In this document: positions 26,949-43,272 of the stretch, in pieces
Numbering within the stretch: the first letter of the stretch is position 1
Layout: every line of letters begins with the position of its first letter
NCBI GenBank assembly: GCA_030066595.1
Contig: JASJBI010000032.1
Coordinates: 62,001-126,000, forward strand
Length of the DNA: 64,000 bases
Source of the DNA: Alphaproteobacteria bacterium
GTDB lineage: Bacteria > Pseudomonadota > Alphaproteobacteria > JAJFFI01
Direction of reading: 5' to 3'
Position numbers and translations under genes: made by a program
Notes under the pieces: generated by a model
Told to the model about the DNA's origin: nothing
The model's input: the letters and a program-made list of their open reading frames with translations, nothing else
The model's database searches: none

Positions 26949-27562
26949 GACCGGATCACGCCCTGATCGCGGAGAAATCCGAGCAGCGGCAGCAAAGGCA
27001 AACCGAGGACGGTGAAATAGTCGCCGCGCACGCTCGTGAACAGTTGTGCCCCGACGCCTTCGAGACGGTAACAACCGACCGAACCCAGCACGCTGTCTCC
27101 AGCCTTGCCCAAATAGTCATCGAGGAACGCATCGCTGAACGGCCGCATAGCCAGCTCCGCGCTGTCGGTCTGATGCCAAAGCCGCTCCCCGTTGCGTATG
27201 ACGACGGCACTGCTCACCAGTCGGTGACTGCGGCCTCGCAACGCCTCTAGGTTCTTCCGAGCCGCCGCCAGATCGACAGGTTTATCGAACCAGGCGCCGT
27301 CACATTCAAGGATTTGATCCGCGCCGATCACCAAAGCGCCGGGCGCACGAGCGCTGACTCGCTGTGCCTTGAGCGCGGCCAGCGCCTCGGCCGTGTCGCC
27401 GGCGCTGGCGCCTTCGGCCCGCAGAGACTCTTTGAGCTCCGCCTCGTCGACAAGAGCCGGCGAGACCTCCATCTCGATGCCGGCTTCGGTCAACAACCGT
27501 GCCCGAGTCGCCGATCCCGAGGCCAGGATCACTTTGGGCCTCTTGGGTTCAATGTCGCTCAC
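26945..27562 (-). CDS. maf: Maf-family nucleotide pyrophosphatase
   Basis: Maf proteins hydrolyse non-canonical or excess nucleoside triphosphates. The 205-residue protein has the signature [17 protein letters not shown] near the N-terminus, the catalytic Asp region [12 protein letters not shown] and the later [12 protein letters not shown]. The GTG at 27562 overlaps the ppsR stop (GTGA). Open sequence upstream lies within ppsR. Confidence 0.92.
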
Positions 27563-28464
27563 GGGCGCCGATCCCGCCGGCGCTGTCCATAGAGATGTAG
27601 AATGGCCGCTGCTGTCTCCTCGATCGACCGTCGGGTCACGTCTATCACCGGCCAACCCTGCTGGCGAAACAAGCGTCGTGCCGCAGCGACCTCCTCTTTG
27701 ATCCGGTCCAGATCCGTGTATTCGGTTTCCTGGTCTTCCTTGAGCATTCGAAGCCGGTTTCGGCGGATCTGCACAAGGGTTGACGGGTTCTCGGTCAGCC
27801 CGACAATCAACGACTCGCTGGCCCCGAACAGTTCCGCCGGCAACGGACAGCCGGGAACGATCGGCACGTTGGCTGCTTTGATCCCGCGGTTCGCCAGGTA
27901 GACACACGTAGGGGTCTTTGATGTCCGAGAGACGCCGACCAGGATGATATCCGCTTCCGTCAGATCCGCGGTTGCCTGGCCGTCGTCATGAGCCAGCACA
28001 TAGTTCATGGCGTCGATGCGGGTAAAATATTCCGCGTCCATGGCGTGCTGCCGTCCGGGTCGTCCCGCGCTCTCCACGCCCAAATGACTTGCCAGGGCGG
28101 CGATGACCGGATCCAAGACCGCAATACAGGGCACGTTCTCCTTCCGGCAGAAGTCCTGAAGACTGACCCTGAGAGTGTCGTCAACCAGGGTAAACAACAC
28201 GATGCCGGGTTCGGCGGCGATCTCTGCCTTGACTTGTTCCAGCTGGCCTTTCGTTCGCACCAGCGGCCAAAGATGTTCCATGACGGCGACGCTCTCGAAC
28301 TGGACTAAGCAGGCGCGCGCAACCGCCGTGAGTGTTTCGCCGGTGGCATCGGAGACCAGATGCAGATGATAGGTTTCAGCTCCGATGGCTGCGGGAAGAT
28401 CAGTGGACAAGCGGTGGCCTTTCTCTGAATATCTCGAGCGCTTGGAGTCTGTCGGCTTTTCCAC
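27559..28464 (-). CDS. ppsR: Pyruvate, phosphate dikinase / PEP synthase regulatory protein (DUF299)
   Basis: Proteins of this family are bifunctional kinase/phosphorylases that switch PPDK or PEP synthase. The 301-residue product has [13 protein letters not shown] at the start of the conserved part and the P-loop-like [19 protein letters not shown] start at GTG 28464 adds about 30 variable residues; a later start is possible. Homologues (RP001 in Rickettsia) flank the replication origin opposite hemE in Alphaproteobacteria, and the same arrangement is seen here. Confidence 0.9.
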
Positions 28465-28818
28465 CCCCGCTCAAGGGAATCAGCGCGATCGGTTCTGAGC
28501 CTGTGCGAAACTCATTCGCAGCCGGTGCAGAAAAAGTTATCAGCAATGCAGTCCACAGCCAGATCCTCTGGATTCTCCTTTTTCGATCCGGTGGAGAGTA
28601 CTTTTAGTCGATATATTACAAGGACTTAGATTTGATACCGTTACTTTGCGCACAAGCGGTCCGCGCGCCTATGGCATTTCATCCAGAGCCCGGGACAGTC
28701 TTGTGTATGACGGCCAATCCACTGGACTCACAGGCCCAACCACCACCACCACTTCTTATTTCAATATATATGTTTGTTTGTAGAGGGATCGCCGTTCTGC
28801 GAAACCGGGGAGACCGTA
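28465..28818. other. Predicted chromosomal replication origin (oriC)
   Basis: This 354-base gap separates divergent ppsR and hemE, the position of oriC in Caulobacter and Rickettsia. Two AT-rich stretches (about 28600-28647 and 28751-28781) are candidate unwinding elements. DnaA-box-like 9-mers compared with TTATNCACA are the reverse-strand site at 28702-28710 (one mismatch) and weaker two-mismatch sites at 28457-28465, 28502-28510, 28537-28545 and 28646-28654. Two-mismatch sites are about as frequent as chance allows, so the call rests mainly on gene context. It also holds the hemE promoter region. No TTAA-N7-TTAA CtrA site was seen. Confidence 0.7.
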
Positions 28819-29862
28819 TTGCCGCAAGCCAGTAGAAAGCCGCTGCTAGAGACCCTCTCCGGACAGGCGACCGGCCGAGCTCCGTTCTGGTTCATGCGGC
28901 AGGCAGGACGATATCTGCCCGAATATCGAGAAATTCGCGCGCGTGCGGGGAGTTTCCTGGATTTGTGCTACGCGCCGGATTTGGCGACCGAGGTAACCTT
29001 GCAGCCGCTTCGCCGGTTCTCGATGGACGCAGCGATCTTGTTCTCGGACATCCTGGTGGTTCCGCATGGTTTGGGCCAACAGGTCGACTTCCGCGAAGGA
29101 GAAGGGCCGGTCTTGGACCCGGTCGAGTCGGCAGCGGACCTCGCGAGACTGGATCTCAACCGAATTGGAGTCGCGCTTGCGCCTGTCTATGAGGCCGTTG
29201 CCCGGATCTCGGGCGAGCTGCCGTCCAATGTCACCTTGATCGGGTTTGCCGGAGCCCCCTGGACGGTTGCGAGCTACATGGTTGAGGGAAGCACCAGTCG
29301 CGACTTTGCCCGGGTCAAAGCCTGGGCCTATGGTGATCCAGCCGGGTTCAAGGAGCTCGTCAATCTATTGGTCAAGGCGACCGTCGAGCATCTGTCCCGT
29401 CAGATCGGAGCTGGGGCGGAAGTCGTACAACTCTTCGACAGCTGGGCGGGCGTGCTGCCGGATGAGCAGTTCCAACTCTGGTGCGTGGAACCCGTGGCGG
29501 AAATCGTGACTCTGTTGAAGGCCCGTCACCCGCATATCCCGGTCATCGGATTTCCGAGAGGAGCGGGAGGTCAGTATCTCGGCTATGCGACAAACACGGG
29601 AGTCGACTGCGTCGGTCTGGACACGACAGTGCCTCTTGACTGGGCGGTCGAGCGCTTATCCGATGCGCGCGTGCTGCAAGGCAATCTGGATCCGGTGGCC
29701 TTGATTACCGGCGGTGAAGCGATGCGTAGCATGGCGGCAACAATCCTGGAGCGTCTTGCCGGTCGGCCGTTGGTGTTCAATCTGGGTCACGGCATTCTGC
29801 CAAGCACACCCCCGGAGCATGTTGCCGAGTTGTGTGAGCTGTTGCGAGCAGATGGGGACTGA
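28819..29862 (+). CDS. hemE: Uroporphyrinogen decarboxylase
   Basis: HemE converts uroporphyrinogen III to coproporphyrinogen III in haem synthesis. The signature RAPFWFMRQAGRYLPEY is near the N-terminus, followed by FSDILVVPHGLG and GFAGAPWTVASYMVEG. The TTG at 28819 is preceded by GGGGAG at normal spacing and gives 347 residues, the usual family length; upstream in-frame codons would add non-conserved sequence. It heads hemE-hemH-hemJ next to the origin. Confidence 0.93.
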   Translation: MPQASRKPLLETLSGQATGRAPFWFMRQAGRYLPEYREIRARAGSFLDLCYAPDLATEVTLQPLRRFSMDAAILFSDILVVPHGLGQQVDFREGEGPVLDPVESAADLARLDLNRIGVALAPVYEAVARISGELPSNVTLIGFAGAPWTVASYMVEGSTSRDFARVKAWAYGDPAGFKELVNLLVKATVEHLSRQIGAGAEVVQLFDSWAGVLPDEQFQLWCVEPVAEIVTLLKARHPHIPVIGFPRGAGGQYLGYATNTGVDCVGLDTTVPLDWAVERLSDARVLQGNLDPVALITGGEAMRSMAATILERLAGRPLVFNLGHGILPSTPPEHVAELCELLRADGD

Positions 29863-34767: not shown

Positions 34768-35232
34768 TCAGCACGCCAGCGGCAATGTCTCGGCGCCTTC
34801 GAGCGCGAGCAGATAGCGCTTGGTTTCAAGCTTTCCTTTGCCGGAATAGCCGCCCAGCCCGGTCCCCGCAACGACGCGATGGCAGGGGATGATGATCGGG
34901 ATCGGATTGCAGCCGCAGGCGCCGCCAACGGCGCGGGCGGCGCTGTCGAGACTCCTGGCCAGCTCTCCGTAACGCCGGACTTGGCCATAGGGGATGGCAA
35001 GCATCTCCCGCCAGACGGCATTCTGGAAAGCCGTGCCCTTTGGTTGTAGCGGCAGATCGAACGCAGTGAGGCGACGGGCGAAATAGGCGGCCAGCTGGGT
35101 CGCTGCTTCCCGGAGCAACGGAGTCTCGGCTCCGGCTTCGGGTACCGTGCCCCATGTGAGTTCGGTGACGTTCTGGCTGGTGGCGTGGATGGTCAGCGCA
35201 CCAACCGGGCTGTCGACGGTCAAGTGCATCAT
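34768..35232 (-). CDS. ogt: Methylated-DNA-protein-cysteine methyltransferase
   Basis: This suicide repair protein transfers O6-alkyl groups from guanine to its own Cys. The 154-residue protein has the active-site PCHRVVAGTGLGGYSGKG, the Arg-finger region YGQVRRYGELARSL and the DNA-binding helix-turn-helix between. The ATG at 35232 overlaps the stop of the upstream YyaL-type gene (ATGA). Confidence 0.94.
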   Translation of the reverse strand: MMHLTVDSPVGALTIHATSQNVTELTWGTVPEAGAETPLLREAATQLAAYFARRLTAFDLPLQPKGTAFQNAVWREMLAIPYGQVRRYGELARSLDSAARAVGGACGCNPIPIIIPCHRVVAGTGLGGYSGKGKLETKRYLLALEGAETLPLAC

Positions 35233-37259
35233 CGGCTTCGCAGTTCGGCCGCGATCTCTGCCGGCTCAGTCAGCGGAAGCGAGCAGGTGGTGCCGCGACA
35301 GACATAAGCGGTGGCAAGTCCATCCTTCGGGGTCTTGCCATGAGCCGGGTGCAGCGCCGGCAGCTCTGTCCCCGGCGGCACGACCGTCAATACCAGGTCG
35401 GGGACCGAGCTCTGCCCGACCGCGGCCAGGAGGGAGGTCGTGTCCGCTGCGCCACGTTCGCCGATGACGGCGACTTGCACGGCGTTCTGCAATAGCTCGT
35501 TCGCGTTCAGCAGGGTCGCCAAGGGAAATATGTTCCGCTGCAGCTCGCCCGAAAATGCCAAGACAATTCTGTCTGCCCGGTCGCGCCAGCTGGCATCCCC
35601 GGTGAGATAGAACAGGCGCGCGAAGACCGCGGCAATGGTCCCGTTTCCCGCGGGCGTGGCATTGTCGGCAACGGTCCGCGTCCGGGCGATGACATCGGTG
35701 ACGTCGTCGGCGCTGAAGTAGTAGCTGCCCGTGTCAGGGTCGAGGTAGTGGGTATCGAGCACCGCGAGCCAGCTCTTGACTTGGTCGAGATAGCTGGCGT
35801 CGCCCCCGTTCTCATAAAGGACCAAAGCGGCCCGGCACATGTTCGCATAGTCGTCGAGCGTGGCCGGGTGTTCCGCCCGGCCGGCGCACCAGCTGTGGCG
35901 CACCCGTGCCGTCCCGCCGGTGGTCTCCGTCATGCGCTCCCGCACGAAGGCAAAGGCCTCGCGTGCCGCAGCCGAGGCCTCGGGTAGATCGAAGACCTGC
36001 GCCGCCCGCGCCAGAGCGGAGATGATCAGGCCGTTCCAGTCGACCAGCACTTTGTCGTCGCGGCCGGGGCGGATCCGGTTCGCGCGCGCCGCGAGCAGCT
36101 TTGCCCGACAGGCGGCGAGACGCGCCTCGTCTTCGTCCGACAGGAGCGCGGGGCGGGCGCTGCGGTTCAGGATGGTCTTGCCTTCCCAGTTGCCCAGCGG
36201 CGTCACGTCATAGGCGGACTTGAAGAGATCGGCGTCGTCTCCGAGCAGCGCATCGATCTCCTCGGCCCGCCAGACGTAGAACTTGCCTTCCTGCCCTTCG
36301 CTGTCCGCATCCAGCGTGCCGGCGAAGCCGCCACCCTCGACGCGCATCTCGCGCAGCAGCCAGGCAATGCTCTCGCGCACGCGCATCTCGTAGACCGGCT
36401 CGCGTGTGTCCTGCCAGACCAAGGTCAAGAGATCGATCAACTGGGCATTGTCGTACAGCATCTTCTCGAAATGCGGCACCAGCCATGCCGGATCGGTGGC
36501 ATAGCGGGCGAAGCCGCCGCCCAAATGATCGTAAATCCCGCCCTGGCACATGCGATCGAGCGTGAGCGTCACCGCGTCGCGGAAGGCTCGTTCACCGGTG
36601 CGCAGCCAGGCGCGCCAGAACAGCTCCAGGATCGAAGGCTGCGGGAACTTGGGTGCGCCGCCGATGCCGCCGTAAACCCGGTCCACCTCTTGCACCAAGC
36701 GGCCAGCGATTTGAGTCGTCGCGTTCAGCGAGATTCCGTCCCCGCTGCGCGCTTCGGAGATGCCGGCTAGACCCGCGATCAGGGCCTTCGCGTTCTGCTG
36801 GATCTTGTCCGGCTCGCGGGCATAGATCTCTGCGACGCGCTGGAGGATCTGCGGGAACCCGGGACGTCCGTAACGGGGCGTCGGCGGGAAATAGGTGCCG
36901 CCCCAGAAAGGCTCGCCCTTGGGCGTGAGAAACATGGTCAGCGGCCAGCCACCCTGTTCGCCGAGCAGCGCCAGCGCGTGCTGATAGATGGTGTCGAGAT
37001 CGGGCCGTTCCTCGCGATCCACCTTGATGTTGATGAAGTGCTCGTTCATCAGGGCCGCGATGTCGTCGTCTTCGAAGCTCTCATGGGCCATGACATGGCA
37101 CCAATGACAGGCGGCATAGCCGATGGAGAGCAGGATCGGCTTGTTCTGCTGTTGTGCGTGCCCCAGGGCAGCCTCGCTCCAGGTCTGCCAGTGAACCGGG
37201 TTTTCTGCGTGTTGTCGGAGGTAAGGGCTGGCTGCTTGTGCGAGAACGTTTTCGGCCAT
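35229..37259 (-). CDS. YyaL-type thioredoxin-domain protein (DUF255)
   Basis: The 676-residue cytoplasmic protein has an N-terminal thioredoxin-like domain with the CHWCHVMAHESFED active site and IKVDREERPDLD. A long alpha/alpha-barrel part resembling N-acylglucosamine epimerases and glycosidases follows (for example GGIYDHLGGGFARYATDPAW). This is the YyaL/SPATA20 family, whose biochemical function is unresolved. The ATG at 37259 begins the conserved NVLAQAASPYLRQHAENPV. It is coupled to ogt and divergent from mnmE. Confidence 0.9.
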   Translation of the reverse strand: MAENVLAQAASPYLRQHAENPVHWQTWSEAALGHAQQQNKPILLSIGYAACHWCHVMAHESFEDDDIAALMNEHFINIKVDREERPDLDTIYQHALALLGEQGGWPLTMFLTPKGEPFWGGTYFPPTPRYGRPGFPQILQRVAEIYAREPDKIQQNAKALIAGLAGISEARSGDGISLNATTQIAGRLVQEVDRVYGGIGGAPKFPQPSILELFWRAWLRTGERAFRDAVTLTLDRMCQGGIYDHLGGGFARYATDPAWLVPHFEKMLYDNAQLIDLLTLVWQDTREPVYEMRVRESIAWLLREMRVEGGGFAGTLDADSEGQEGKFYVWRAEEIDALLGDDADLFKSAYDVTPLGNWEGKTILNRSARPALLSDEDEARLAACRAKLLAARANRIRPGRDDKVLVDWNGLIISALARAAQVFDLPEASAAAREAFAFVRERMTETTGGTARVRHSWCAGRAEHPATLDDYANMCRAALVLYENGGDASYLDQVKSWLAVLDTHYLDPDTGSYYFSADDVTDVIARTRTVADNATPAGNGTIAAVFARLFYLTGDASWRDRADRIVLAFSGELQRNIFPLATLLNANELLQNAVQVAVIGERGAADTTSLLAAVGQSSVPDLVLTVVPPGTELPALHPAHGKTPKDGLATAYVCRGTTCSLPLTEPAEIAAELRSR

Positions 37260-37516
37260 GATCCGTTGAAGCCCTGCCGACACGGGTGGTAAGTGGTAGC
37301 GGGTGCGTGCGTCTCTTTGGAACATATAGACTCGTCGGACCAGGAGGCGAGTCGGAATGGTGACATAGATCCGGATATGGCAAGGAACATAATCCTATTC
37401 TTGTTTACCGGCGTTGAGCGGGGAACCAGAGTGCACGCAACAGCCTGGAAATCCTTGTGTATTACGAATTCGAAACGATAGGGAAAGACGGTTCCGAGGA
37501 AACGACAGCGGCGGTA
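37260..37516. other. Divergent spacer between YyaL-type gene and mnmE
   Basis: This 257-base region must hold promoters for both directions. No clear sigma-70 hexamer pair was identified. In-frame codons upstream of the mnmE ATG (from 37457) could extend MnmE by 20 residues, but the extension is not family-like. Confidence 0.4.
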
Positions 37517-38874: not shown

Positions 38875-38890
38875 TGTTTCACGTGAAACG
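38875..38890. promoter_or_regulatory. parS centromere site 1
   Basis: The palindrome GTTTCACGTGAAAC (38876-38889), within TGTTTCACGTGAAACG, lies between mnmE and mnmG. It matches the conserved bacterial parS consensus, and parA-parB is encoded 3 kb downstream. ParB would load here to build the segregation complex. Confidence 0.92.
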
Positions 38891-40914: not shown

Positions 40915-41571
40915 GTGGGCGACCTCAGCCTCGAGGAGTTCTCTGAACGGATCACTGTTTCACGTGAAACAGCGGCGCGGCTCGATCGGTACCTCTCCCT
41001 GCTGCGGATCTGGCAAAAACGAATCAACCTGGTCGGCGCCCGCACGCTGAGCGAGCCCTGGCGCCGGCATATGCTCGACTCCGCCCAGCTTTGGCCAATC
41101 ATTCAATCCCTTAGCACCTCTCGGGGCGGCGAACCCTTGGTCGTGGACCTGGGCAGCGGCGCTGGCTTTCCGGGATTGGTCCTGGCCATCCTCGGCGGCG
41201 TCCAAGTCCACCTGATCGAGAGCGACGCCCGCAAATGCGCCTTCCTGCGCACCGTTGCGGACGCCACCGAGACCCCTGTCGCCATTCACGCGAGGCGTGC
41301 GGAAGATATTGATCCAACAGCCGTTTTGGGCCCTCGCTTGGCCGACTGGGTGACCGCCCGGGCCTGTGCGCCGCTGCCCCGGCTGCTCGAGCTCGCTCAT
41401 CCCTTCCTAGCCCCCCAGGGACGATGCCTCTTTCATAAGGGTGCGCGCTGGGCCGAAGAATTGACGGAGGCAAAAAAAACCTGGAAGATCGCCAGCGAAT
41501 GCTTGCCCAGCATGTCCCACGAGTCTGGTGTGCTTCTCAAGATCACGGAACTGAGCCCTGATGGACTCTGA
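40915..41571 (+). CDS. rsmG: 16S rRNA (guanine-527-N7) methyltransferase RsmG
   Basis: The 218-residue SAM-dependent enzyme methylates G527 of 16S rRNA. SAM motif I is VDLGSGAGFPGLVLAILGG, and the family region WQKRINLVG precedes it. A parS palindrome is embedded in its 5' coding sequence and encodes TVSRETA, a feature shared by many alphaproteobacterial rsmG genes. The GTG at 40915 gives the normal length. Its end overlaps parA by 11 bases. Confidence 0.95.
   Translation: MGDLSLEEFSERITVSRETAARLDRYLSLLRIWQKRINLVGARTLSEPWRRHMLDSAQLWPIIQSLSTSRGGEPLVVDLGSGAGFPGLVLAILGGVQVHLIESDARKCAFLRTVADATETPVAIHARRAEDIDPTAVLGPRLADWVTARACAPLPRLLELAHPFLAPQGRCLFHKGARWAEELTEAKKTWKIASECLPSMSHESGVLLKITELSPDGL
40956..40971. 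promoter_or_regulatory. parS centromere site 2 (inside rsmG)
   Basis: TGTTTCACGTGAAACA is a perfect 16-base palindrome matching the parS consensus, within codons 14-19 or so of rsmG. It lies 2.08 kb from site 1 and 0.6 kb before parA. Confidence 0.95.
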
Positions 41572-42382
41572 GCTCGGCCAGCCCGCCACGGCGGTCGATT
41601 TCCCGCGCGCGCCGCGGATCATTACGGTTGCGAATCAAAAAGGCGGCGTCGGCAAGACCACCACCGCCATCAATCTGGGCACCGCATTGGCCGCCGTGCG
41701 CAAGGACGTACTGGTCATCGACATGGACCCCCAGGGCAATGCCACCACCGGTCTGGGCATTGATCGGGGGGCGATCCCTTACACCAGCTACGAACTGGTC
41801 ATGGGGGAGGCGACCGTCGAGCAGGCGGCGCTCGAGACCCAGGTGCCGCAGCTCGACATCATCGGCTCGACCGTCGATCTGTCCGGCGCGGAGATCGAGC
41901 TGGTCGACACGCCTCGGCGGGAGTACCGCCTGCGCGAGGCCCTGGCCGGACAGGTCGGCGGCTACGACTATGTCCTGATCGACTGCCCGCCGGCGCTCGG
42001 TCTTCTGACGCTGAATTCTCTGGTCGCGGCCGACGCCGTGCTGGTTCCCTTGCAATGCGAGTACTACGCCCTCGAAGGGGTCAGCCACTTGGTGCGCACC
42101 ATCGATCGGGTGAAGCGCGCGCTCAATCCCGGCCTGGAGATTCAGGGCGTGGTGCTGACCATGTTCGACCGCCGAAACAACCTTTCGTCCATGGTGGCGG
42201 ACGACGTGCGCAGCCATTTCGGCGATAAGGTCTACAAGACCATCATCCCGCGCAATGTCCGCGTTTCGGAGGCGCCGTCCCACGGCAAGCCGGTGCTGCT
42301 TTATGACCTGACCTGTGTTGGCTCGCAGGCGTATATGCACCTGGCGAGCGAAGTGCTCAAACGGGAGCACGCGACAGCATGA
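41561..42382 (+). CDS. parA: Chromosome partitioning ATPase ParA
   Basis: ParA forms a nucleoid-bound ATP gradient that moves the ParB-parS complex. The 273-residue protein has the deviant Walker A NQKGGVGKTTTAINLG, switch I DMDPQGNATTGLG and the Walker B region YVLIDCPPALGLLTLNSL. The start lies inside the end of rsmG. The stop overlaps parB (ATGA). Its location about 13 kb from the predicted origin is as expected. Confidence 0.96.
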   Translation: MDSELGQPATAVDFPRAPRIITVANQKGGVGKTTTAINLGTALAAVRKDVLVIDMDPQGNATTGLGIDRGAIPYTSYELVMGEATVEQAALETQVPQLDIIGSTVDLSGAEIELVDTPRREYRLREALAGQVGGYDYVLIDCPPALGLLTLNSLVAADAVLVPLQCEYYALEGVSHLVRTIDRVKRALNPGLEIQGVVLTMFDRRNNLSSMVADDVRSHFGDKVYKTIIPRNVRVSEAPSHGKPVLLYDLTCVGSQAYMHLASEVLKREHATA

Positions 42383-43272
42383 CCGAACGCGAGGCCAAAC
42401 GACGCAGCCTCGGCCGCGGCCTCGACGCACTCCTCGGGAGCCGGGCGGAAGCGGAGAGCGCGCCAGCCGATGTCAGTCGCACATCGCAGTCCTTGCCCAT
42501 CGAGTTCGTCCATCCCAGCCGGTTTCAGCCCCGGCGAGACTTCGGCGGCGAGGAGTTCGAAGAACTCGTCATTTCGGTTCGGGAAAACGGCATCCTGCAA
42601 CCGATCCTCGTAAGGCCCGATCCGGACAAGGCCGGCGGCTATCAGATCGTCGCCGGCGAGCGCCGCTGGCGCGCGGCTCAACAGGCGCAGCTGCACGAAG
42701 TGCCGGTGGTGATCCGCGAGCTCGACGATGCAGAGGCGCTCGAAGCCGCGCTCGTTGAAAACCTGCAGCGCAAGGACCTTTCGCCGCTCGAGGAAGCGGA
42801 GGGCTACCGTCGCCTGATGGACGAGTTCAGTCACACCCAGGAACAGCTGGCACAAGTTGTCGGCAAGAGCCGCAGTCATGTCGCCAACATGCTTCGGCTT
42901 CTGGGCTTACCCGCAGCGGTGAAAGCGCTCTTGCAAAGGGGAGACCTGACGGCGGGTCACGCCAGAGCGCTGCTCAATTCGACGGACCCCGAAGCCCTGG
43001 CGCAGCAGGTGGTGCTGCGAGAGCTCAGCGTTCGCCAAACGGAAAAGCTCTCCCAGGCGGGCCGAACCACGCCAAGAGCGACGCAGAAGAGCACGCCCCC
43101 CAAGGGTGCCGACACCCTCGCGCTCGAACATGAACTCAGTGAGGAGCTGGGCCTGTCCGTGACCATCCGCGAGCGTGCCCGCGGCGGCGAAGTGGTGATC
43201 CGCTATGCCACCCTGGAGCAGCTCGACGAGGTGCTCGGTCGCCTTGGCCGCCGCTCTGTGGCTTCCACTTAA
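42379..43272 (+). CDS. parB: Chromosome partitioning CTPase/DNA-binding protein ParB
   Basis: The 297-residue protein begins RRSLGRGLDALLG, the usual ParA-interacting N-terminus. CTP-binding motifs follow (GGYQIVAGERRWRAAQ and ALVENLQRKDLSPLEEAEGY). The helix-turn-helix that reads parS is around QEQLAQVVGKSRSHVANML, and a C-terminal dimerisation domain closes the protein. Its targets are the two parS sites at 38875 and 40956. Confidence 0.96.
   Translation: MTEREAKRRSLGRGLDALLGSRAEAESAPADVSRTSQSLPIEFVHPSRFQPRRDFGGEEFEELVISVRENGILQPILVRPDPDKAGGYQIVAGERRWRAAQQAQLHEVPVVIRELDDAEALEAALVENLQRKDLSPLEEAEGYRRLMDEFSHTQEQLAQVVGKSRSHVANMLRLLGLPAAVKALLQRGDLTAGHARALLNSTDPEALAQQVVLRELSVRQTEKLSQAGRTTPRATQKSTPPKGADTLALEHELSEELGLSVTIRERARGGEVVIRYATLEQLDEVLGRLGRRSVAST

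Follow-up and report, generated by a model that had tools for sequence, protein, structure and literature searches.

Cori of Caulobacter crescentus depends on two classes of weak DnaA site, the G-boxes (TGATCCACA) and the W-boxes (TCCCCA) (PMC4468827, PMC4285127). In Hyphomonas neptunium, the marker-frequency peak lies near hemE, skew and DnaA boxes gave no clear answer, and parAB is found about 7 kb from the origin together with two parS sites (PMC6650430). The mechanics of opening are best compared with the basal unwinding system (BUS) of Bacillus subtilis, in which tandem DnaA boxes and a GC-rich motif are followed by trinucleotides that are bound single-stranded by a DnaA filament (PMC8287927, PMC8235120, PMC10721633). 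There, GGCC separates the last DnaA box from the unwinding element (PMC8235120), and trios with a central G or T work poorly (PMC10721633).

The DNA analysed here (the window) is a stretch of 64,000 nucleotides, positions 62001-126000 of a contig of 176606 bp (C32) in an assembly of 5.08 Mb, 119 contigs and 90% completeness from an uncultured alphaproteobacterium. Only one other genome of the same order was present in our collection, and the closest hemE relative in the named collection was 64% identical. The intergenic region between ppsR and hemE (28411-28818) is very probably the chromosomal origin of replication, orthologous to the hemE-linked origins of other Alphaproteobacteria; the prediction draws on synteny, on the density of DnaA-box cores and on a strand change point at 28.0 kb. 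A preliminary description had placed an origin here on context alone, and that placement is now supported by a unique sequence module, the adjacency of this module to hemE, the strand change point and the skew turn of a complete relative (G010). The position of the predicted origin is now narrowed to tens of bases, in a lineage without obvious skew whose order has only two genomes in our collection.

The gap itself exists as described, but its left edge had to be moved. The start of ppsR is a TTG at 28410-28408, judged from homology and a ribosome-binding site, giving a gap of 408 bp instead of 28465-28818; the earlier edge arose because the longest ppsR frame had been taken. The right edge agrees with the earlier one, hemE starting at a TTG at 28819. 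The flanking genes are divergent, with ppsR of the RP001 family on the minus strand (27559-28410 after trimming of the start by homology; NF003742, 5.9e-105) and hemE on the plus strand (28819-29862; TIGR01464, 6.4e-121). The neighbours read outward locally, ppsR-maf-aroE on the minus strand and hemE-hemH-hemJ-rho on the plus strand. Farther right, rho is followed on the plus strand by mnmE, mnmG, rsmG, parA and parB, with holA on the minus strand. The order aroE-maf-ppsR / hemE-hemH-hemJ-rho was kept in nearly all of about 100 fetched alphaproteobacterial loci, and ppsR was divergent from hemE in nearly all loci (fetched by hemE similarity) that reached far enough. Neither hemE nor ppsR was found in the same-order genome, G001. 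Between rho and mnmE, the minus strand carries a frame of 698 aa (35229-37325) with only weak thioredoxin-like matches (DsbH/TsoB).

The partitioning sites and genes (parS and parAB) lie 10-14.5 kb from the gap, in agreement with the 10-14 kb noted earlier. One parS site with a single mismatch was matched between mnmE and mnmG (38875-38890) and one exact site, TGTTTCACGTGAAACA, within the first part of the rsmG frame, shortly ahead of parAB (40956-40971); the called genes parA (41561-42382) and parB (42379-43272) occupy 41561-43272 on the plus strand. ParB bound to parS, 10-12 kb to the right of the origin, would segregate the duplicated origin. The arrangement resembles that of H. neptunium in its hemE-near origin, two parS sites and unclear skew and DnaA boxes, a resemblance drawn from these features, and differs in that parAB is about 7 kb from the origin there and about 13 kb in the window. 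With Cori the gap shares a position flanking hemE and weak DnaA sites.

DnaA-box matches in the gap are weak in the literal sense. The consensus TTATNCACA was absent, and a single site had one mismatch to it, the inverted TCATACACA at 28702-28710 (minus strand). Across 94 orthologous gaps, sites differing from the consensus at no more than one position numbered 246, compared to 28.5 expected from shuffles, and by full-length DnaA-box PWM score our gap ranked in the lowest 3% of orthologs. Within the ortholog PWM, the shorter core TCC[AC]C shows the highest conservation. This core occurred at 12.3/kb in the gap, which falls in the top 0.9% among 216 intergenic gaps of the same genome, a ranking that was semi-blind in that the repeated TCCAC in the gap had already been noticed. 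The median was 2.7/kb for the intergenic gaps of this genome vs 14.9/kb for orthologous gaps. TCCAC cores were located in TTTTCCACC (28460-28464, plus), CAGTCCACA (28552-28556, plus) and CTCTCCACC (28591-28595, minus). Domain IV of the genome's own DnaA looks canonical.

AT-rich patches are present as reported: the second of them (28531-28640) holds the most AT-rich 100-bp segment of the window, starting at 28531 (59% AT), a value exceeded by intergenic stretches elsewhere in the genome. Single-strand folding of the full gap gave no more structure than shuffles, and Rfam gave no match across window positions 20-46 kb. Just left of the window, at C32:59600-59800 (window about -2400), a 150-bp stretch is 70% AT vs a far lower contig mean.

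Alignment of the gaps revealed a hemE-proximal block common to the orthologs. A 36-bp PWM of this block, whose seed consensus was written after inspection of an alignment that included our genome and whose refinement used orthologs alone, scored 31.2 bits at 28716, the highest value among the 353142 positions of the contig (both strands counted); the next score was 15.7. We also built a sequence-only profile from an 80-bp alignment of 45 orthologs with our own genome left out. Searched against the 5.08-Mb genome, it returned one significant match, C32:90701-90774 (window 28701-28774, plus strand; 41.1 bits, E 4.8e-10), the next having E 0.84; these E-values are rough, as they come from a shortened calibration. 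In a draw from the class, 72 of 115 genomes contained a module match at E <= 0.01. Among the 21 held-out genomes (those not in the profile) in which both module and hemE were located, the module stood immediately 5' of hemE, no more than about 400 bp away, in 15 (G006, G009, G016, G019, G021, G024, G026, G027, G034, G035, G041, G051, G052, G054 and G058), the places being compared by eye. It matched away from hemE in the remaining six (G011, G014, G020, G031, G046 and G050); five of these matches were weak, with E above 0.001, and that in G020 was near a contig end. The profile locates likely origins in many Alphaproteobacteria, draft genomes included.

The first element of the module is the inverted site at 28702-28710, where a DnaA site had been suspected; orthologs align there with GTGGATAA/GTGCATAA-like sequence. 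Two tandem DnaA-box-like sites, recognized by alignment and PWM, follow on the plus strand: CAATCCACT at 28715-28723 (AATCCCCG/A in orthologs) and GGACTCACA at 28724-28732 (TTATCCACA or GGATTCACA in orthologs). Next come a GC-rich linker, GGCCC (28733-28737, plus), the final C of which doubles as the first base of the repeats, and the DnaA-trio-like trinucleotide repeats CAA CCA CCA CCA CCA CTT CTT ATT (28737-28760, plus), which read 3'-GTT GGT GGT GGT GGT GAA GAA TAA-5' on the lower strand. The sequence past 28760 is TTCAATATATATGTTTGTTTG, and the AT-rich DNA that covers the last repeats and the bases beyond them (28752-28782) is likely the first part to unwind (the DUE); AT-rich tails come after the repeats in orthologs too. 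In 48 non-redundant modules, our own included, phased C-N-A repeats gave 3.21 observed vs 1.45 shuffled (z = 17.2). NTN phasing, the pattern expected of a central adenine on the lower strand, was depleted in the orthologous modules (z = -4.1). The centres of the lower-strand 3'-GNT-5' units across modules were T in 44%, A in 28% and G in 28%. In our module, the box-adjacent repeats have the centres T, G, G, G and G, and central A occurs in the last three alone (GAA GAA TAA).

Conservation just 5' of hemE would also be seen if the sequence were merely the promoter region of the divergent ppsR and hemE genes, which require promoters. That reading is extremely unlikely, given tandem DnaA-type boxes, phased trinucleotides and a turn in strand composition, none of them promoter features, and a search of the gap for sigma-70-like promoters that found none.

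As a predicted origin, the module resembles BUS in its order of parts: two tandem DnaA boxes, a GC-rich linker, repeated trinucleotides and then AT-rich DNA. The phased trinucleotide repeats follow the tandem boxes directly, which is one of the BUS criteria. Under the published box rule, the trios adjoin either one box with no more than 2 mismatches or two boxes with no more than 2 and 4; each of our tandem boxes has at least 3 mismatches to TTATNCACA, and many orthologs do better. The trio rule calls for at least three trinucleotides near a box with a central adenine on the trio strand, and our box-adjacent repeats lack central A. The module is therefore most likely BUS-like in its working, and not a textbook member. 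The trios differ too: those of B. subtilis are 3'-GAT-5' with a conserved central A, whereas the module has 3'-GNT-5' with a free centre. In B. subtilis, the captured G of the trio contacts Arg202 and Glu228 of DnaA, and the central A contacts Asn187. When our DnaA was aligned to 8btg, Lys, Glu and Tyr stood at the places of Arg202, Glu228 and Asn187; Asn187 and Arg202 of B. subtilis are here replaced by Tyr and Lys. Tyr was found at the Asn187 place in 28 of 29 alphaproteobacterial DnaAs (our own included) and Phe in the other. Lys at the Arg202 position was also observed in the alphaproteobacterial DnaAs of loci L124-L153.

Most likely, by analogy, DnaA would bind weak boxes across the gap and be seeded at the tandem pair (28715-28732). 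A DnaA-ATP filament would then grow across the GGCCC linker to reach the lower strand of the repeats at 28737-28760 and stretch the DNA, opening it into the AT-rich 28752-28782, where helicase would load. We tentatively propose, as a possibility that we hold with less than even confidence, that a variant trio, 3'-GNT-5' with the outer G and T kept, together with a DnaA carrying Asn187 to Tyr and Arg202 to Lys, is used class-wide, and that GANTC methylation could tune initiation. We infer that the changes in the DNA repeat and in the DnaA residues are matched; because both are class-wide, they may represent one evolutionary event and not many. Only the variant trinucleotide element is uncommon; the predicted origin is otherwise of a known kind. 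If the variant trio is true, the base-capture model of DnaA unwinding becomes testable in a second bacterial class.

Regulatory sites in the gap set it apart from Cori: no CtrA site (TTAA-N7-TTAA) was found within one mismatch, and a search of our assembly (90% complete) gave no CcrM RAMA domain. GcrA is present. Four GANTC sites lie in the 408-bp gap, at 28445, 28477, 28571 and 28725 (9.8/kb vs 2.1/kb for the contig), and the orthologous gaps show a similar abundance. The last of them (GACTC, 28725-28729) lies inside tandem box 2 at an exact offset shared by 16 of 53 modules; overlap of GANTC with this box was seen in 32% of modules vs 1.8% expected. Methylation control of the predicted origin is offered as a suggestion.

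The preliminary description looked to cumulative GC skew for a turn at the gap. The window minimum is indeed at 28762, but no V appears here across the 176.6-kb contig, and in the source genome raw GC skew is too faint a signal to decide the origin. With gene strand corrected for, third-position skew switched sign at the gap when 20-30 kb on either side were considered (p = 0.005), while over the whole contig the sign change was insignificant (p = 0.2). The tests of strand asymmetry covered fetched stretches from eight contigs. To tell leading from lagging genes, a codon-usage classifier was trained on six other contigs, themselves oriented by KOPS and third-position skew. It placed a change point on C32 at window 28011 (p = 0.004); it is a weak classifier, with a held-out accuracy of 0.49-0.63. 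Of the change-point bootstraps, half fell within 28.0-32.3 kb and 90% within 28.0-46.3 kb. Contig C104 also had a classifier minimum (p = 0.017). Of the 32 label sets possible, the one used, which was inferred and not known, gave the largest effect, as would be expected of a real signal. KOPS to the right of the gap were all forward (5:0), and those to the left were 4 forward and 5 reverse.

Initiation elsewhere in the gene cluster, between hemJ-rho and parAB, would accommodate both the bootstrap range reaching to 46.3 kb and the largest local skew rise, which is at 37-39 kb. It is nevertheless highly improbable, since no other position on the contig exceeded 15.7 bits with the module PWM. We also regard as highly improbable that the gap is the relic of an ancestral origin, the active one having moved, for example to the vicinity of dnaA on contig C21. 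Such a move would agree with weak DnaA boxes and with raw skew that lacks a contig-scale turn, but the module is intact and unique, the density of the core motif is ortholog-like and the strand change point falls at the gap. Moreover, no box cluster was found in the fetched dnaA neighbourhood or around any of the 12 exact TTATCCMCA matches in the rest of the genome, and the tested C21 stretch had no significant change point (p = 0.09).

The placement of the predicted origin in the ppsR-hemE gap is consistent with the complete relative G010, which has clean skew and strongly polar KOPS. Its steep skew fall ends at 3605 kb, followed by a flat stretch and then a rise, and its module lies at 3605266-3605339; the absolute minimum falls within this flat stretch, at 3617 kb. 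A second complete relative, G029, was rejected as a skew reference, its GC skew being too weak. On C32, the corrected third-position skew was negative again beyond about window 62 kb (C32 124-176 kb), 35 kb to the right of the predicted origin, in contrast to the part of this arm closer to the gap; a local inversion, an import or a misassembly is a possible cause of this reversal.
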